A DNA stretch of 64,000 bases from assembly GCA_902777335.1 (NCBI GenBank), contig CACYTF010000005.1, forward strand, positions 1 through 64,000, given 5' to 3'. The stretch is from an uncultured Eubacteriales bacterium (GTDB taxonomy: Bacteria; Bacillota; Clostridia; Christensenellales; Aristaeellaceae). The position numbers were made by a program, and so were the translations under genes. Of the stretch, positions 51,068 to 59,271 are shown piece by piece; the stretch's first letter is position 1, and each line of letters opens with the position of its first letter. The notes under the pieces were generated by a model. The model worked only from the letters and a program-made list of their open reading frames with translations, ran no database searches and was not told where the DNA came from.

Positions 51068-51096
51068 TTGACAGATGAAGAAATGATCGATAAAAT
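51068..51096 (+). promoter_or_regulatory. promoter of the VTC-CotH cluster
   Basis: Perfect TTGACA (51068-51073), 17-base spacer and TAAAAT (51091-51096), 77 bases before the VTC gene. It is the only good promoter I see for the next nine genes. Confidence 0.85.
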
Positions 51097-51113
51097 GATT
51101 CAGATAAAGCGCG

Positions 51114-51153
51114 TTTGTACCGATACAAATCGACTGCGTACAAATCGACCGCG
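51114..51153 (+). repeat. palindrome plus tandem 15-bp repeat in the cluster leader
   Basis: TTTGTA-CCGA-TACAAA (51114-51129) is a perfect palindrome. Its right half opens a tandem 15-base repeat: TACAAATCGACTGCG (51124-51138) and TACAAATCGACCGCG (51139-51153), one base different. Both start about 20 bases after the -10 box, a fitting place for a repressor operator or RNA-binding site. Confidence 0.85.
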
Positions 51154-51172
51154 GGAAGCACGGTGATCGAAC

Positions 51173-51898
51173 ATGAACAGGCTGGTGCGCGAGGGCGAGA
51201 AGTACCGCCATGAGCTGAAATACATCTGCCACAACACGGAGCTGGAGGTCATCGAGCGTAAGCTGCGCTGCGTGATGCAGCCCGACAGCCACGCCGACGC
51301 CAACGGCGAATACCTGATCCGCAGCGTCTACTTCGACGATTACCGGCGCAGCTGCTATTACGAAAACGAAGACGGGGTGGACCCCCGGGAAAAGTTCAGG
51401 CTTCGCATCTACAACTACCAGGACGGGCGGATCTCCCTGGAAAAAAAGAAGAAGAACCGGGGCATGACCGGCAAGGAGAGCTGCCTGGTGGACCGGGAGA
51501 TATGCGACAAAATGCTTCGGGGGCAGCCCATCCGGGATAAGCTGGGCCGCCACAGGCTGCTGGACGAGTGGATCATACGCAGCGAAACCGAGCGCCTGAG
51601 GCCGGTCATGCTGGGGGAGTACGTTAGAAAGCCGCTGGTCTACCGGCTGGGCAACGTGCGCATCACGTTCGACAGGAACATCTGCGCGTCGCCCCAAATG
51701 ACGGACATCTTTGAGCGGAACGTATCGCGGGTGGCCGTGCTGCCCACCGGCTACCACGTGCTGGAGGTCAAGTACGACAACTACCTGCCGGACGTCATCT
51801 ACCAGCTGATCGACAACGGACATCTTCAGCAAACCACGTTTTCTAAATTCTATCTGGGATGCAAAGCAATAGGAGGTATCGTCAATGAGCTTTCGTGA
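51173..51898 (+). CDS. VTC-domain (polyphosphate polymerase-type) protein
   Basis: The 241-residue protein is a VTC domain, the tunnel-shaped catalytic domain that in yeast Vtc4 makes polyphosphate from ATP. Signs are YRHELKYICH (E-x-K-Y) near residue 12, IRSVYFDDYRRSCYYE near residue 49, and KFRLRIYNYQDGRISLEKKK near residue 75 with the R-x-R and E-K-K tunnel residues. MLGEYVRKPLVYRLGNVRIT-type strand residues and LEVKYDNYLPDVI near residue 203 are also present. No SPX or membrane domain is attached. The DUF4956 gene begins inside its end (14-base overlap), a pairing seen widely in bacteria. Whether it makes polyphosphate or another phosphopolymer here is open. Confidence 0.9.
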   Translation: MNRLVREGEKYRHELKYICHNTELEVIERKLRCVMQPDSHADANGEYLIRSVYFDDYRRSCYYENEDGVDPREKFRLRIYNYQDGRISLEKKKKNRGMTGKESCLVDREICDKMLRGQPIRDKLGRHRLLDEWIIRSETERLRPVMLGEYVRKPLVYRLGNVRITFDRNICASPQMTDIFERNVSRVAVLPTGYHVLEVKYDNYLPDVIYQLIDNGHLQQTTFSKFYLGCKAIGGIVNELS

Positions 51899-52559
51899 CA
51901 TCTTTAGGAAGGGGTTTCTGACATCCTACGCCAACCGGGAGATCACCTTCAAGTACGCGGTGATCTGCATGGCCATCTGCCTTGCGATCGCGCTGGTCAT
52001 CTGCGCGGTGTACTACATGAAGTCCCGGAAGTACTTCTTCTCCAAGGAGTTCGCGGTGTCGCTGGTGGGCCTGTCGGTGATCACCGTGTCGGTCATACTG
52101 ACGATACAGTCCAGCGTGGTGGTTTCGCTGGGCATGGTGGGCGCGCTGTCCATCGTCCGCTTCAGAACGGCCATCAAGAACCCGCTGGACCTGGTGTTCC
52201 TGTTCTGGTCGATCTCCATCGGCATCATCTGCGGCGCGGGCCTGTTCTACATCGCCGTGCCGCTGACGCTGATCCTCGGCGTCGCCATACTGCTCTCCGA
52301 CGAGGTGCCGGGCTTGCCCCGCAACCGCATACTGGTGCTGGACGGCAAATATCCCCATGACGAGGCCGCCATGCTGGCCATACTGAAAAAGTACGTCAAG
52401 TGGTACAACATCCGCACCGAGAGCGTGCACAACGACAGCGTCAACCTGATCATCGAGGTGCGCCGGGTGAAGAACAGCGCCGAACTGATTCGGGAGATGA
52501 AGGGCCTGGGCGCCTTCAGCGACGTTTCGCTGCTCATTCAGGAGGGCAGCGTCGACTGA
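51885..52559 (+). CDS. DUF4956 membrane protein, copy 1
   Basis: The 224-residue protein has three to four membrane helices in its first 140 residues (YAVICMAICLAIALVICAVY, FAVSLVGLSVITVSVILTI, then the conserved SSVVVSLGMVGALSIVRFRT and FWSISIGIICGAGLFYIAVP). A cytoplasmic domain of about 85 residues follows (VKWYNIRTESVHNDSVNLII). The S-L-G-M-V-G-A-L-S-I-V-R-F-R-T block is the hallmark of DUF4956. The family travels with VTC and CotH genes; its function is unknown, and a membrane partner or channel for the polymerase is a reasonable guess. Translation is coupled to the VTC gene by overlap. Confidence 0.92.
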   Translation: MSFRDIFRKGFLTSYANREITFKYAVICMAICLAIALVICAVYYMKSRKYFFSKEFAVSLVGLSVITVSVILTIQSSVVVSLGMVGALSIVRFRTAIKNPLDLVFLFWSISIGIICGAGLFYIAVPLTLILGVAILLSDEVPGLPRNRILVLDGKYPHDEAAMLAILKKYVKWYNIRTESVHNDSVNLIIEVRRVKNSAELIREMKGLGAFSDVSLLIQEGSVD

Positions 52560-52573
52560 CGCCGGAGTGCACC

Positions 52574-54275
52574 ATGAACGCTAAGCCTGCAAAGTTACTG
52601 GCATGCGCGGCGGGCGGCATTTGCATTGCGATGCTGCTGGTAGCGGCGCTGCTTTCGCCGAAGACGAACGGCCGGGGCGTCGGCGCGGTGGCAATGTCCC
52701 GGGCGTCGGGGTTCTACGACGCGCCCTTCGATCTGGAGCTGAGCTTTGACGGCAGAATCTACTACACCCTGGATTCCAGCGACCCGGATGAAAATGCCAT
52801 ACCCTATGAGGGGCCCATTCACATAACGGATGCCAGCGTCAACCCCAATGTCTATGCCATGATCACCGATGTCTGCCTGGAGTATCAACCCGAGCAGATC
52901 GCCCATTCCGGTAAAAAGCCGCACTTCGGCTTCCAGTTGCCCGAGCAGCCCGTAGACAAGTGCACGGTGGTGCGCGCCGTGGGCATTGACGGGAACGGCA
53001 ATCGCAGCGACGTGACCACCGGCGTTTACTTCGTGGGTTTCCAGGAAAAGACGGGCTATCAGGGCATGGGGATCATCAGCATCACAACCGATCCCGAGAA
53101 CCTGTTTGGCTTTGAAAAGGGCATCTATGTGCTGGGCAAGACCTTCGCGGATTGCCTGGAGGACGACGGGCTGTATCCGGTCACGAAAGATGACTACGTG
53201 TTCTGGAAATCCAACTACAGAAAGCACGGCATCGACTGGGAGCGCGAGGCGAACATCTGCTGCTTTGATGCCGACAGAAACCTTCTCTTCTCCGGCAATT
53301 ACGGCGTCCGGATACAGGGAAGGGTGAGCCGCGCCTTCCTGCCGAAGAGCTTCAACCTGTTTGCGCGCAGCCGGTATGGCTCAACCGCGTTCTCCGGCAT
53401 GGATCTGTTCGGCGAAAACTGGCAGCTTGGCAGTTTGAACCTGCATTCGGGCGCGCATGCGATCGTGACCAAGCTCAACGATTATCTGATCAATGACCTG
53501 GTGAGGGATCTGGACATCGATACCCGCATCTACAGGCCCTTCGAGCTGTTCCTGGATGGCGAGTATTGGGGGGGTGTACTGGCTGACACCCCGGTATGAG
53601 AAGGAGTGTTTTCAATACAAGTACGGCGTACAGGACGACGAGGTCGTACAGATCAAGGAGAAATCGGTGGAGATCGGCAACGAGGACGACGAGGCCCTCT
53701 ACAAGGCTTTTGTGTCATTCGTTACCGGGCATGACATGAAGGATCCGGCCCAGTATGCCCAGGCCTGCGCGCTCTTTGACCTTGAAAGCTGCATCGATTA
53801 CTACGCCACGGAGATCTACATCGCCAACCACGATTGGCCGCGGACCAACTACTCCGTGTGGCGCACGCGGCAGAAGGGCGGGGGAGCCTGTGGCGATGGG
53901 AAGTGGCGCTGGATACTGTTCGATGTGAACATGGCCATGGCGCTCGGTGAAACCCAAGCGGATACCATCGCGAAGGCGAAAAAGTATGACAGGGTATTCA
54001 GACATCTGATGAAAAACACGGAATTCGCAAACGCCCTCACCGACAAACTGGTGGAGCTGGCCGATAACACCTTCAATCCGGCCAGAGTAGAAGCCCGGAT
54101 CAGGGAATACGAGGCGTTTATGGCGAATGCCATCGAAAACGAATACGCGCGATACTACAACAACACGAAAAGTGAAGAGGATTTTATAGCCAAGTGTGAA
54201 AACAAGATCCGCTTCTTCTACGAACGCAACGCCTATATCAAAGAGATGTATGGAGACGGAAGAGTCGTGCGATGA
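52574..54275 (+). pseudogene. cotH: CotH-family kinase with CHB_HEX_C domain, copy 1, interrupted by +1 frameshift in G7
   Basis: The gene reads in frame to GEYWG near 53565, where seven G (53568-53574) shift the frame; removing one G restores the same reading as copy 2 (GEYWGVYWLTPRYEKE). The joined gene would then have 566 codons before the stop, the same as copy 2. Without correction the protein stops at 53599 after about 341 residues, losing the C-terminal half with WRWILFDVN. The N-terminus is a signal anchor (residues 6-29), then a chitobiase-type C-terminal-like domain (ASGFYDAPFDLEL, YYTLDSSDPDENAIPYEGPI), then the CotH kinase-like domain. It could be a broken gene, a phase-variable gene or a sequencing error. 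Confidence 0.85.
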
Positions 54276-54317
54276 CCGGCGTCGGAGCCTGCGGCGCCGG
54301 TGCAGATGGAGAAGGGC

Positions 54318-56018
54318 ATGAGCAGCAAACGCAAGAGGATCATCAGTTGTGTCATCGGCGGCATCGTATTGGCGATGCTGTTGTTCGGCGCACTGCGGTC
54401 GCCCCGGACAAACAGCTCCGGCGTCGATGCCGTGACGTTCTCCCGCGCGTCCGGCTTCTACGACGACCCGTTCGACCTGGAACTGCGCTTTGACGGCGGG
54501 AAGGTCTACTACACGCTGGATTCCAGCGATCCAAACGAGCATTCCACGCCCTACGAAGGGCCGATCCACATCGCGGACGCCAGCGCAAACGAGAATGTGT
54601 ACTGCATGAACGAAGACCTGTCGCTGGAGTACCACCCGGACATCATCAAGCACGCCGGCCACTCGGTGCACTACGGCTACAAGCTGCCACAGTCCAAGGT
54701 GGACAAGGTCACGGTGGTGCGGGCGGTTGGCGTCGACGCCGCGGGCAATCGCAGCGACGTGGTCACCGGCGTCTATTTCGTGGGGTTTCAGAATAAGACG
54801 GGCTATGACAACTTCGGCATCATCGCCATCACAACAGATCCGAAGAACCTGTTTGACCCGGAACACGGAATCTACGTGCTGGGCAATGCCTTCGCAAAAA
54901 AGCTGGTCAACGGATACTTCAAAAAGACGAGCGCGCTGTACGAAGCCTGGCCGGCCAACTATAACAGGCGGGGCAGGGAATGGGAGCGGGAGGCCGCGGT
55001 CGCCTGCTTTGACACCGACAGGCGCCTGCTGTTTTCAGGCAACCTCGGCATTCGCATACAGGGCAAGATGGCCCGCGGCATGCTGCCCAGAAGCCTGAAC
55101 CTGTTCGCCCGGAAGGAATACGGTCAGGTCGACATCCCGGCGCTCGACCTGTTCGGTGAAAACTGGCGGTTGAGCAGCCTGAATCTGCACGCGGGCGCGC
55201 ATACCATGCGGGACATGCTGCGCGACTATCTGGCCAACACCCTGACCAGCCATCTGAATTTTGACACGCGCGTCTACAAGCCTTACCAGCTCTTCCTTGA
55301 CGGGGAATACTGGGGCGTCTACTGGCTGACGCCGCGGTATGAGAAGGAGTATTTCCAGTCCAAATACGGCGTGCCCAGCGACGAAGTCATCGATGTCAAG
55401 GAGGATAAAATCGAAATCGGCAGGGCGGAGGATATTGAGCTCTACAACGAGATGAAGTCCTTCATCACGGACAACGACATGAGCGATCCGGCCATGTACG
55501 CCCGGGCCTGTGAGCTGGTCGACATGTCCAGCTGCATCGACTACTACGCGACGGAGATCTACATCGCAAATACGGACTGGCCCCATGGGAACGTGGCCCT
55601 TTGGCGAACCCGAGGCAATGACAGCGGCGTATATGGTGACGGCCGGTGGCGCTGGATACTGTATGACCTGAACCTGGCCATGGCCCTCAAGCATTCGGAA
55701 ACGGATACTGTAACACGTTCGATGAAGCAATCCCCGATGCTGGCCAGCCTGATGGACAGCCCCGATTTCACGCAAGCCCTGCACGCCCGTCTGGTCGAGC
55801 TGGCGGAGAATGAATTCAACCCGGCCCGTATTGAGACCTTCATCCGCGACTACGAGACGTTCATGGTGGACGCCATGGAGAACGAGTATATCCGCTTCTA
55901 CGATGCAGAAAAGACCGCGGACGATTTTATACGGATGTGTGAGAACGTTGTGACGTTCTTCCAGCGGCGCTGCGTGTACATACTTGAAAACTACGGTGAC
56001 GAATTGGAACGGAAGTGA
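54318..56018 (+). CDS. cotH: CotH-family kinase with CHB_HEX_C domain, copy 2, intact
   Basis: The 566-residue protein has a signal anchor (residues 8-28, IISCVIGGIVLAMLLFGALR) and a chitobiase C-terminal-like domain (SRASGFYDDPFDLELRFDGG, YYTLDSSDPNEHSTPYEGPI). The CotH domain from about residue 170 has SLNLHAGAHTMRDMLRDYL, LFLDGEYWGVYWLTPRYEKE and GRWRWILYDLNLAMAL. CotH is known as an atypical secreted kinase that phosphorylates spore-coat proteins; relatives exist in non-sporulating bacteria with unknown targets. ATG at 54318 follows GGAG at 6 bases. It is about as long as the repaired copy 1 and similar throughout. Confidence 0.9.
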   Translation: MSSKRKRIISCVIGGIVLAMLLFGALRSPRTNSSGVDAVTFSRASGFYDDPFDLELRFDGGKVYYTLDSSDPNEHSTPYEGPIHIADASANENVYCMNEDLSLEYHPDIIKHAGHSVHYGYKLPQSKVDKVTVVRAVGVDAAGNRSDVVTGVYFVGFQNKTGYDNFGIIAITTDPKNLFDPEHGIYVLGNAFAKKLVNGYFKKTSALYEAWPANYNRRGREWEREAAVACFDTDRRLLFSGNLGIRIQGKMARGMLPRSLNLFARKEYGQVDIPALDLFGENWRLSSLNLHAGAHTMRDMLRDYLANTLTSHLNFDTRVYKPYQLFLDGEYWGVYWLTPRYEKEYFQSKYGVPSDEVIDVKEDKIEIGRAEDIELYNEMKSFITDNDMSDPAMYARACELVDMSSCIDYYATEIYIANTDWPHGNVALWRTRGNDSGVYGDGRWRWILYDLNLAMALKHSETDTVTRSMKQSPMLASLMDSPDFTQALHARLVELAENEFNPARIETFIRDYETFMVDAMENEYIRFYDAEKTADDFIRMCENVVTFFQRRCVYILENYGDELERK

Positions 56019-56023
56019 TGACC

Positions 56024-56698
56024 ATGACACTGACAGAGGCCTTCAAAAACCGCTTCCTGAACGCCTATGCCAGCCAGGGGGCAGGTATAAAGCAGGTCGT
56101 GCTCGCGATGGCCGCCTGCCTGCTGCTCTCGGCGGCGATCGATCTGGTGTACTGCATGCGCAAATGCAAGCATGGGTTTTCGCGGCGCTTCATGGTGTCT
56201 CTGACGGCCGTTTCGCTGATCACACTGGCCTTCGTGCTGACGATCGAGTCCAGCATCGTCGTGTCCCTGGGCATGATCGGCGCGCTCTCCGTCATCCGCT
56301 ATCGCATGGCGGTAAAGGGCCCGCTGGAGATGATGTTCCTGGTCTGGTCCGTTTCGGTGGGCATCATCTGCGGCGCCGGGCTGTACTACATCGCCGTGCC
56401 GCTGACCGCGCTGGTGGGGCTCGTCGTTCTCCTTTCAGACCGGGCGCCAGGCGCGGCGCGCAACCGGCTGCTGGCGCTGGACGGCCGCTATCCCTATGAC
56501 GCGGCGCGGCTGGAATCGGTGCTGAAGCGCCATGCGCGCTGGCACCGCGTGCGCACGGAGAACATACACAACGGCGATGTGAACCTGGTGATCGAGCTGC
56601 ACCGAACGCAGGACGAGGCCGCGCTGATCGAAGAGATCCGGCAGATGAGCGACTTCCACGACGCAACGCTCCAGACGCAGGAAGGGGTTGTGGACTGA
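56024..56698 (+). CDS. DUF4956 membrane protein, copy 2
   Basis: The 224-residue protein is a paralogue of the first DUF4956 gene, identical in length when started at 56024 and with the same block, here SSIVVSLGMIGALSVIRYRM, then MFLVWSVSVGIICGAGLYYI and RWHRVRTENIHNGDVNLVIE. It lies directly after CotH copy 2 (TGATG overlap region). Having two different DUF4956 proteins with one VTC protein suggests a membrane complex of two related subunits or two assembly states; this is inference. Confidence 0.92.
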   Translation: MTLTEAFKNRFLNAYASQGAGIKQVVLAMAACLLLSAAIDLVYCMRKCKHGFSRRFMVSLTAVSLITLAFVLTIESSIVVSLGMIGALSVIRYRMAVKGPLEMMFLVWSVSVGIICGAGLYYIAVPLTALVGLVVLLSDRAPGAARNRLLALDGRYPYDAARLESVLKRHARWHRVRTENIHNGDVNLVIELHRTQDEAALIEEIRQMSDFHDATLQTQEGVVD

Positions 56699-56699
56699 C

Positions 56700-57338
56700 A
56701 TGAGAGAGATTTTGGGAAAACGGCTGTTCATCGCGGCGATGGCCATCTGCCTTCTGCTGGTCTGCGCGCTGTCCTGGAGCGATGTGCGCCATGTCGAGGC
56801 CGGGTCGGCCGCGAAGACGCCTGAAAACGAAACGCTGACCATCGAGGTGTCCCCGAGTGGTACGGTGTACATCGGCGGCGAGGGCGAGCTGACGTCAAAC
56901 GATATGAACCTGCTGATGCAAAGCAAGCAGATCAAGACGCATCAGGTCAACGGCATCGTACTTGGCGACGGCATCACCGAGGTGGGCTACAACGCGATCA
57001 ACGGCTATAGCTATTTGCAGACGCTGAAGCTGGGCGCGGGCATGTGCGTGGTCAACAACGGCGCGATCAAGAGCTGTATCGCACTGGAATACGTGTTCGT
57101 CCCCAAGACGGTCCAGCGCCTGGGCAAGGACTTTCTGTACCGGTGCGGCGACGCGATCGTCGTGACCGACGGCGAGGCCAAGGACCTTCCGAAGATGAAG
57201 AACGTGCCGTCGGAGCGGGTTTTCGCGCAGGTGGATTCCTATGATTCGCTGCTGGCGCGGCGCGCGGCGCTTATCCCCGCAGGGGGAGAGGCCGAGGCGC
57301 CCGAAGTGCCCGAGGCCTGCCGTGAATGGTGGCAATGA
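56700..57338 (+). CDS. exported protein with leucine-rich (BspA-like) repeats
   Basis: The 212-residue protein has a signal anchor (residues 8-26, RLFIAAMAICLLLVCALSW) and a BspA-type leucine-rich region (about 70-145: HQVNGIVLGDGITEVGYNAI, YSYLQTLKLGAGMCVVNNGA, CIALEYVFVPKTVQRLGKDF). Such repeats usually bind proteins or surfaces. The last 60 residues are less ordered and acidic. It starts one base after the DUF4956 stop (TGACATGA), so it belongs to the same transcript. I cannot name the bound partner. Confidence 0.8.
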   Translation: MREILGKRLFIAAMAICLLLVCALSWSDVRHVEAGSAAKTPENETLTIEVSPSGTVYIGGEGELTSNDMNLLMQSKQIKTHQVNGIVLGDGITEVGYNAINGYSYLQTLKLGAGMCVVNNGAIKSCIALEYVFVPKTVQRLGKDFLYRCGDAIVVTDGEAKDLPKMKNVPSERVFAQVDSYDSLLARRAALIPAGGEAEAPEVPEACREWWQ

Positions 57339-57371
57339 GACCTTACAGACAACCGCTGGGAGAGAATACCG

Positions 57372-58508
57372 ATGGCAATACGTAGAACGGCGCGCCGGCG
57401 CGGCGCGCTGGAATGGCTGCGCCGGCAGCTGTCAAGACGGCCCCTGCCGCTGTGGATGGTCCTGACCGCCCACGTGTTGGCGCTGGGCGTCGCCATGCTG
57501 CTGTACGCGCTGCCGCACCACGTGATCCCCCACGGCGAGGCGTCCATCGGCATCGTCTCCACGCGCGGCGGCGCGGCGGCCATGTCTCAGGCGGCGGAGC
57601 CCGCGCCGTCGGAAGCGGCCGAACCGGCGGCTGAAACGGCGGAGGACGAAGCGGCGGCCGGAGCCGTGGACGCGCAACAGACCATCGCGCCGACCCCGGC
57701 GCCGACGGTGGACCCGAAGACGGTGGGCAACTTCAGGGAAAAGTACGCGGGCAAGTTTACCAGCGGCGAGGTCCGCGTCACCGAGGACAGCTACCAGAGC
57801 GAGAACCTGAACATACAGGTCATCAAGAAGTACATCGAGGACCTGCCGGCGTGGGTCTACGTGGTGGACATCTACATCGCGGACATCAGCTGTCTGCAGA
57901 CCGCCTTCGGCAAGGACACCTACGGCCGCGGCTATACCGAGTGGGTCACCAAGGTGGCGGAGCGCTACGGCAGCGTGGTCACGATGAACGGCGACTACTA
58001 CGGCACCCGGGACACCGGCGTGGTGATCCGAAACGGCATGCTGTACCGCGACAACAAGACCACCCACGACATCGCCATACTCTACTGGGACGGGCACATG
58101 GAGACCTTCTCCGCCGACGCCTTCGACGCCAAGCGGGAGATGGACCGCGGCGCGTACCAGAGCTGGTGCTTCGGCCCCTCGCTGCTGAATGAGACGGGCT
58201 CGCCGAACACTTCATTCGATGATTACGCCGACAACCTGCTCAAAAGGAATCCGCGCTCGGCCATCGGCTACTTCGAGCCGGGGCACTACTGCTTCCTGGT
58301 GGTGGACGGCCGCAGCAAGGAGTCCAAGGGCGCGCGCATGACCCAGCTGGCCAATTTGATGGCCGGCGTCGGCTGCAAGATCGGCTACAACCTGGACGGC
58401 GGACAGACCTCGCTGCTGGCCGTCGGCACGCAGCTGTACAACCACCCGTCGGACGGCGGGCGCAACAGCAGCGACTACATCATGATCATAGACGCGGTCA
58501 CCGAATGA
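57372..58508 (+). CDS. phosphodiester glycosidase (NAGPA-like) with membrane anchor
   Basis: The 378-residue protein has one N-terminal helix (residues 27-48), an Ala/Glu/Pro-rich linker (about 65-115) and a NAGPA domain. This domain type removes N-acetylglucosamine from GlcNAc-1-phosphodiesters in the lysosomal pathway and is called phosphodiester glycosidase in bacteria. Visible motifs are VTMNGDYYGTRDTGVVIRNG near residue 205, SWCFGPSLL near 257 and YNLDGGQTSLLAVG near 338 (Asp-Gly-Gly loop). The active part should be outside the cell. Beside a phosphate polymerase and kinases it may trim or cap a phosphodiester-linked surface polymer; this is inference. Confidence 0.88.
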   Translation: MAIRRTARRRGALEWLRRQLSRRPLPLWMVLTAHVLALGVAMLLYALPHHVIPHGEASIGIVSTRGGAAAMSQAAEPAPSEAAEPAAETAEDEAAAGAVDAQQTIAPTPAPTVDPKTVGNFREKYAGKFTSGEVRVTEDSYQSENLNIQVIKKYIEDLPAWVYVVDIYIADISCLQTAFGKDTYGRGYTEWVTKVAERYGSVVTMNGDYYGTRDTGVVIRNGMLYRDNKTTHDIAILYWDGHMETFSADAFDAKREMDRGAYQSWCFGPSLLNETGSPNTSFDDYADNLLKRNPRSAIGYFEPGHYCFLVVDGRSKESKGARMTQLANLMAGVGCKIGYNLDGGQTSLLAVGTQLYNHPSDGGRNSSDYIMIIDAVTE

Positions 58509-58555
58509 CGCGGCACCGGCCGCGGGAGAATGTGAGAAGAGAATGGAGTCGGGCG

Positions 58556-59038
58556 ATGATGCTGAAGAGGGCTGGCAGGCTGCTGCCGCACGCCGCGATA
58601 CTGCTTTGCAATATGTATATCGTGCTCTACCTGATCGACCGCGTGAATCCGGCGATGAATTTCATCGACAACGGCCTGACCAAGGGGCTGCTGCTGTTGA
58701 TGTGCGCCGTCGCGCTCATCAACGCGCGGCGTCTGCTCGCGCGGCCCGCCCACCAAAGCGCCCGCCGGGCGAGCTACGCCCCGGGGCGGCAGGCGCGCCC
58801 CGCTTACGCCCGGACCGACGGCCATCGTCGCGCGCCGGAGCCGTCCCGCCCGCGGGCGGGCTATCGCGAACCGGACCGATACGCCCGCGCCTCCGGGCGG
58901 TACGAGGCGCGGCCCGGCTATGCGCAGCGGACCGTGAGCACCGGATACGCGCGGCAGTCGCGCTATGGGCAGCCGGACGGCCGCGAAAGCTATCCGCGGC
59001 GCGGCACAGGCTATGACAGGGAGGGCGTGCGCCGATGA
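58556..59038 (+). CDS. small two-helix membrane protein with Arg/Tyr-rich tail
   Basis: The 160-residue protein has two helices (about residues 8-28 and 42-58: ILLCNMYIVLYLIDRV, KGLLLLMCAVALINAR) and a long C-terminal tail rich in Arg, Tyr, Pro and Gly. The tail carries short repeats (GRYEARPGYAQ, STGYARQSRYGQ, SYPRRGTGYDRE). ATG at 58556 follows GGAG at 7 bases; the ATG at 58505, overlapping the previous stop, has no site. The helical part resembles the next gene product. The tail suggests binding to an acidic polymer such as polyphosphate or nucleic acid, but nothing proves this. Confidence 0.65.
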   Translation: MMLKRAGRLLPHAAILLCNMYIVLYLIDRVNPAMNFIDNGLTKGLLLLMCAVALINARRLLARPAHQSARRASYAPGRQARPAYARTDGHRRAPEPSRPRAGYREPDRYARASGRYEARPGYAQRTVSTGYARQSRYGQPDGRESYPRRGTGYDREGVRR

Positions 59039-59271
59039 GTAACTGGCAAAGGCTGCTGCCCGCGGTCAGCGCGCTGCTGTGCGCCGTGCTGATGATACTG
59101 CTTTTGATCGACGCCATCTGGCCGCTGGCCAATCTCTTTCTGAACCCGTTTGTGAAGCTGCTGGCGCTCGTCACCGGCCTGATCGCCGCGGTCTGCGGCA
59201 TATTGCTCGCCGCCAGGGAGCGGCGGCGCATCCGCTACGGCCAACGGGCCAGGCGCGGAACCTACCGATAA
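59035..59271 (+). CDS. small two-helix membrane protein, relative of the preceding one
   Basis: The 78-residue protein has two helices ([20 protein letters not shown] and [20 protein letters not shown]) and a basic tail ([18 protein letters not shown]). It lines up with residues 7-65 of the preceding protein without gaps, sharing LLC, LID, P, N, N and K positions in the two helices. Its ATG overlaps the upstream stop (ATGA). It is the last gene of the cluster; fhs starts 38 bases later without a terminator between. Confidence 0.65.

Follow-up and report, generated by a model that had tools for sequence, protein, structure and literature searches.

We found that positions 51,074–57,357 of the window (the whole 64,000-nucleotide stretch of DNA analyzed here, on contig C5 of the 3.64 Mb genome, in 107 contigs, of a rumen bacterium) constitute a presence/absence cassette that varies between close relatives, and we define a four-gene form of this cassette consisting of CotH, VTC, DUF4956, and a leucine-rich-repeat (LRR) protein. 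The firmest result to emerge from the analysis is that the VTC protein has DUF4956 as its constant membrane partner.

The cassette belongs to a run of nine genes, all on the forward strand behind one promoter, whose spacing ranges from overlap to gaps of about 40 nt. The gene families, common strand, and promoter named in a preliminary description of this DNA were borne out: Pfam assigns VTC, DUF4956 (twice), CotH, and NAGPA, while LRR_5 matches below threshold and two small membrane proteins complete the set. No NCBIfam model scored above its cut-off for the proteins of the nine-gene set. The features are as follows.

51068–51096, forward strand: sigma-A type promoter, TTGACA-17-TAAAAT, 11 of 12 consensus matches
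51074–57357, forward strand: cassette block VTC–DUF4956a–CotHa–CotHb–DUF4956b–LRR, absent from the relative G023
51173–51898, forward strand: VTC (triphosphate-tunnel) polymerase, 241 aa, assigned by Pfam, residues, and fold
51885–52559, forward strand: DUF4956a, membrane protein of 224 aa with a C-terminal ACT-like domain (residues 147–218)
52574–54275, forward strand: CotHa, broken by a +1 shift into fragments 52574–53599 and about 53574–54275
54306–56018, forward strand: CotHb, intact, with CHB_HEX_C_1/Fn3_assoc and CotH kinase domains
56018–56698, forward strand: DUF4956b, a diverged paralogue common to the relative G015, RxR kept
56700–57338, forward strand: BspA-type LRR protein, membrane-anchored, of a cassette-specific family
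57372–58508, forward strand: NAGPA-domain protein, membrane-anchored, of a separate module
58505–59038, forward strand (the start may be 58556): p9, two-helix membrane protein of the separate module
59035–59271, forward strand: p10, two-helix membrane protein of the separate module, homologous to p9

The promoter is the better of only two such sites in 9.2 kb, for which shuffled sequences yield 2.7 by chance. We did not find a convincing terminator between the nine genes and the FTHFS gene (59310), and the transcript may accordingly extend further.

In G023, a close relative (98% identical in FTHFS and 92% in NAGPA), the NAGPA–p9–p10–FTHFS series comes immediately after uxaA. Alignment of the two loci shows homology ending at window position 51073/51074, where the −35 box ends, and resuming at 57358, such that 124 bp in G023 replace 6.28 kb of the window. 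This empty site reveals a module boundary inside the nine genes, which had been proposed to act as one unit and which instead form two modules. The GC content of the cassette block is 58.6%, compared with 64.2% for the window and 66–69% for uxaA, NAGPA, and FTHFS. As to the direction of the event, the sharing of DUF4956b with G015 favors loss by G023, and the low GC of the block favors transfer, that is, gain by the genome studied here (G000).

The VTC protein scores 138 bits with the PF09359 profile (cut-off 23), and the profile in turn finds yeast Vtc4 with an E-value of 7e-17. Absence of the tunnel residues had been named as one finding that would refute the proposal, yet they are present: Vtc4 residues K200, R264, R266, K281, K294, R361, R373, E426, S457, and K458, which we take from the Vtc4 structures to have tunnel and metal roles, are all matched in VTC, with R253 represented by Lys in the VTC profile and the K455 position being variable. 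An AlphaFold model of the protein (pLDDT 90.6) finds as its best fold match Vtc4 with AppNHp-Mn (3g3r; E 3.5e-15, TM 0.69), and the same search also returns tunnel-fold triphosphatases. Hydropathy indicates no membrane segment. The yeast VTC complex (Vtc4; PDB 3g3r, 8i6v) thus has the tunnel fold, the catalytic residues, and a membrane partner in common with the bacterial proteins; in contrast to it, the bacterial VTC protein (241 aa) lacks both an SPX domain and fused membrane helices, and a sequence search with DUF4956 matched no VTC-complex chain. In the literature, we found no biochemical evidence of polyphosphate synthesis by any bacterial VTC protein.

Both DUF4956 proteins exceed the PF16316 cut-off of 30.6 bits (65.4 and 43.5 bits). 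The predicted structure consists of about five long helices followed by an ACT-like domain, the latter recognized by fold (Z about 10 over 70–76 residues), while the membrane part is poorly modeled (pTM 0.54). Among 27 sequences, the invariant residues include G86, R92, R94, and G113, with R92 and R94 forming an RxR motif; the DUF4956b copies from the window and G015 make up a long separate branch within the cassette group. The DUF4956 sequence has no real match in the PDB, and the fold search matched the ACT-like part only. DUF4956 may share with MgtC/SapB membrane proteins a layout of membrane helices plus a C-terminal ACT-like domain, which in DUF4956 is based on fold for the ACT-like part and on hydropathy for the poorly modeled membrane helices. 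DUF4956 nevertheless differs from that family in scoring below its cut-offs (12.6 and 19.6 bits with MgtC profile PF02308, cut-off 31.4) and in carrying its own SLGMVGALSIVRFRT-type motif.

The assignment of DUF4956 as the membrane component of the system, made in the preliminary description, is upheld by its distribution. VTC and DUF4956 occur in the identical 21 of 149 genomes sampled across the phylum (genomes that are not independent of one another), with no genome carrying just one of the two, and in the same 3 of 14 controls. In the phylum-wide carriers the two genes are usually adjacent, and CotH often comes next. Among 60 relatives, 58 of 65 DUF4956 open reading frames lie no more than 1 kb from a VTC gene of the same strand; of the other seven, six are the second copy in a cassette or sit at contig ends. 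DUF4956 thereby gains a firm functional tie, since in the phylum-wide sample it is never found without VTC, nor VTC without it.

The LRR protein likewise holds its proposed place as a member, being a real cassette gene that is kept even in an AT-rich contig from a relative (L155, 38.7% GC), where a tight CotH–VTC–DUF4956–LRR series follows GT4 glycosyltransferase domains and a GtrA protein. This contig (L155:726-10918), from an uncultured Clostridiales bacterium, also encodes an FkbM methyltransferase. With the LRR_5 profile (PF13306, cut-off 27.7), the window protein scores a sub-threshold 21.2 and its L155 homologue 28.7. Members of the LRR family are membrane-anchored and have an invariant Trp-Trp pair close to the C terminus; by hydropathy, CotH, LRR, and NAGPA each have one N-terminal membrane segment. 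All strong LRR matches (E 1e-31 or better) fall within these cassettes, in seven other genus members, one of which (G009) is represented by a contig that carries only LRR and flanking genes. Nearly all of the named relatives that the LRR profile retrieved are uncultured Clostridiales of the RGIG series, which originates from sheep duodenum, and of the RUG series of rumen genomes.

Copy number and order of the cassette genes vary, as in G026 (CotH–VTC–DUF4956–LRR–CotH–DUF4956–LRR). Upstream of the cassette in G010 and G026 lie a sulfatase-domain membrane protein with a weak LtaS match and a protein of about 540 aa without family assignment, which in G026 are preceded by an MBOAT protein with a sub-threshold DltB score. 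Free variation of neighboring genes between relatives, which had been named as evidence against a conserved system, is true outside CotH, VTC, DUF4956, and LRR but not for those four.

VTC–DUF4956 pairs also occur elsewhere in this genome. A paralogous pair forms part of a CotH–VTC–DUF4956 group with LTD and PIG-L proteins (L005), and another accompanies a secreted protein resembling Cthe_2159 (L004), a family assignment made on the corresponding L055 protein. The former is a genus-wide PIG-L/CotH-LTD/VTC/DUF4956/LTD locus (L005:5700-15300), which type IV pilus genes adjoin in this genome; a pilus link was dropped, as neither PilM nor PilD turned up next to this locus in relatives. The latter arrangement, VTC-DUF4956 with a Cthe_2159-type carbohydrate-binding protein, is seen at L004:9587-16150, L055, and L060, with a two-component system nearby in G033 and G029.

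Both CotH genes match the PF08757 profile above cut-off, CotHb at 121.6 bits and CotHa in two pieces. CotHb comprises an N-terminal membrane anchor, a CHB_HEX_C_1/Fn3_assoc region, and the CotH kinase domain, and its invariant D422 and D452 are suitably placed as candidates for the catalytic Asp pair (D228 and D251 in B. subtilis CotH). The Pfam CotH domain is shared with the CotH spore-coat kinase (PMC7821199), from which the cassette proteins differ by their membrane anchor and chitobiase-like domain and by their location in a VTC operon rather than a coat locus. A search of the PDB with the CotH profile found no CotH chain. Of the two copies each of DUF4956 and CotH that had been described, the DUF4956 pair stands and the CotH pair does not, since CotHa is split at a run of seven G residues.

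The genes of the cassette have relatives in described systems, and the core is therefore not undescribed, as had been suggested. In streptococci and clostridia, CotH–PPP–DUF4956–DUF4832 genes are contiguous with pel (pelDEADAFG; PMC7112168), and in S. intermedius the pel accessory genes are SIR_1591-1594 (PMC12345266). Deletion of DUF4956 there leads to more Pel and deletion of CotH to less, with aggregation decreased in both, and deletion of the VTC gene SIR_1593 was not reported to alter aggregation or Pel (PMC12345266). These Gram-positive accessory genes have in common with the window a contiguous, one-strand set of CotH, a VTC-type polymerase, and DUF4956 (PMC7112168; PMC12345266), whereas the window cassette contains LRR, lacks DUF4832 and PelG, and has two copies each of DUF4956 and CotH. 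A double VTC locus with CotH is also known from C. perfringens NELoc-2, where two VTC genes are each followed by a small 'tubulin/FtsZ' membrane protein and then CotH (PMC2879425); judged by position and size, that protein is probably DUF4956. NELoc-2 differs from the window cassette in that its VTC gene is duplicated, a resolvase separates the pairs, a glycosyl transferase lies nearby, and no LRR is described.

The CotH-VTC-DUF4956 trio has been reported to occur solely at Pel (PMC12345266). We found no pel genes in the neighborhood of the window cassette; PelG was absent from this genome and from the eight genus members tested, and 18 of 20 phylum-wide VTC carriers also lacked it; in G158 one of three VTC–DUF4956 pairs is located about 4 kb away from PelG. 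The absence of PelG from the tested cassette carriers and most phylum carriers indicates that the trio is in most cases independent of Pel, which runs against the published statement.

We tentatively propose, at somewhat less than even confidence, that the cassette is a surface-polymer module in which VTC–DUF4956 acts as a membrane-coupled synthase of the polyphosphate type and CotH modifies a surface glycopolymer. Specifically, VTC, by its residues and fold, would use nucleotide to build a phosphate chain at the membrane's cytoplasmic face, and DUF4956, its obligate partner by genomic pairing, would anchor it through helices bearing the invariant RxR that probably conduct or regulate the product, while the ACT-like domain may sense a ligand. 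Based on topology and family, CotH and LRR would be anchored outside, the former phosphorylating surface proteins or polymer and the latter binding them. The output would be an altered amount or adhesiveness of surface glycopolymer, as in the S. intermedius pel DUF4956 and CotH mutants, with NAGPA-p9-p10 as an independent neighbor. The connection to a surface polymer, already drawn in the preliminary description, is supported by the gene neighbors (LtaS-like, DltB-like MBOAT, GT4, and GtrA) and by the published pel mutants (PMC12345266), which together suggest the glycopolymer role. Against this reading, no polysaccharide synthase lies within the window cassette, and an extracytoplasmic kinase is left without an obvious phosphate donor. 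The literature result on bacterial VTC activity, the S. intermedius VTC deletion, and the poor model of the DUF4956 membrane part count against it as well.

Alternatively, VTC and DUF4956 could serve as an intracellular sensor of phosphate or polyphosphate that merely regulates polymer synthesis and exports nothing, with DUF4956 acting like MgtC through its ACT domain and VTC hydrolyzing or binding triphosphates. The weak MgtC-like matches and ACT fold, the increased Pel of the DUF4956 mutant, and the many triphosphatases among tunnel-fold enzymes, some of them recovered by our own fold search, are consistent with such a role. We nonetheless consider it rather unlikely, as both fold and sequence point first to the Vtc4 polymerase, with its lysine/arginine set, and not to a triphosphatase, the MgtC matches remain below cut-offs, and the extracytoplasmic CotH and LRR proteins would be unexplained. 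A bolder version of the synthase proposal, to which we assign a low probability, is that VTC-DUF4956 serves bacteria in general as a polyphosphate synthase-translocase that exports its product past the invariant arginines of DUF4956, whose membrane part would be unrelated to yeast Vtc1, and that extracytoplasmic CotH uses polyphosphate rather than ATP as donor to modify surface proteins or glycans. If the pair does make or export polyphosphate, this would account for how anaerobic gut bacteria might phosphorylate surfaces without external ATP.

We also considered whether the cassette in this genome is a decaying mobile remnant, with CotHa a pseudogene, DUF4956b evolving fast, and the block being lost. 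The CotHa frame is broken (+1) at the seven-G run (53568–53574), the sole G or C run of seven or more in the window. At this site, CotHb and eight same-cassette CotH copies from relatives read TGGGGCGT (WGVYW or a close variant). The two CotHa fragments, which carry an N-terminal membrane anchor, chitobiase-like domain, and CotH domain, are each 56–60% identical to CotHb. The frameshift may reflect a sequencing or assembly error, phase variation, or true loss. Although this lesion, the long DUF4956b branch, and the absence of the block from G023 fit decay, the genes for VTC, DUF4956a, CotHb, and LRR are unbroken and their conserved motifs are in place, DUF4956b retains its RxR and also occurs in G015, and an assembly error may account for the frameshift; we regard decay as quite improbable. 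The G7 run itself is a possible phase-variable tract.

The NAGPA protein scores 89.5 bits with PF09992 (cut-off 25) and matches 3ohg and the NAGPA structures 6pkg/6pku. At 16 loci retrieved from relatives, NAGPA–p9, often with p10, occurs with no VTC genes, next to FTHFS or to MBOAT and DHHW/AlgX-like genes, for example. NAGPA was not found beside the LRR cassettes of five genomes (G008, G009, G010, G018, and G026). The order in G015 is LRR–p9–p10–NAGPA, and probably the same in G022 across a contig break, indicating that the two modules are neighbors at a shared FTHFS locus; NAGPA–p9 also adjoins the VTC–DUF4956–Cthe_2159 locus in G033 and G029. That all nine genes form one system, with NAGPA editing a phosphodiester-containing polymer that VTC and CotH help make, is very unlikely: the single promoter without a terminator, the LRR-NAGPA adjacency in the window, and the arrangements in G015, G022, G033, and G029 speak for it, but the G023 empty site, the 16 VTC-free loci, and the five LRR cassettes without NAGPA alongside speak against it. 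On the basis of the empty site and independent distribution, we rejected NAGPA and p9/p10 as cassette members, contrary to the initial proposal. Also rejected was a polymer-binding role for the Arg/Tyr-rich basic tail of p9, which is variable rather than conserved and is predicted to be cytosolic by the positive-inside rule.

We found nothing direct in the literature on NAGPA in exopolysaccharides. A conserved unnamed module in this family (57372–59271 and L129-L148) consists of NAGPA and, after it, a two-helix membrane protein, often with a homologous second one; the two-helix protein has a conserved loop like DRVNxAMNFIDNGLTKGLLL. At L135, L136, and L137, NAGPA-p9-p10 adjoins MBOAT and DHHW/AlgX-like genes, which suggests that the module works on an O-acylated polysaccharide. 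The p9 and p10 proteins are homologous hairpins, and they occur as a natural fusion in G017 (L133:10547-10996).
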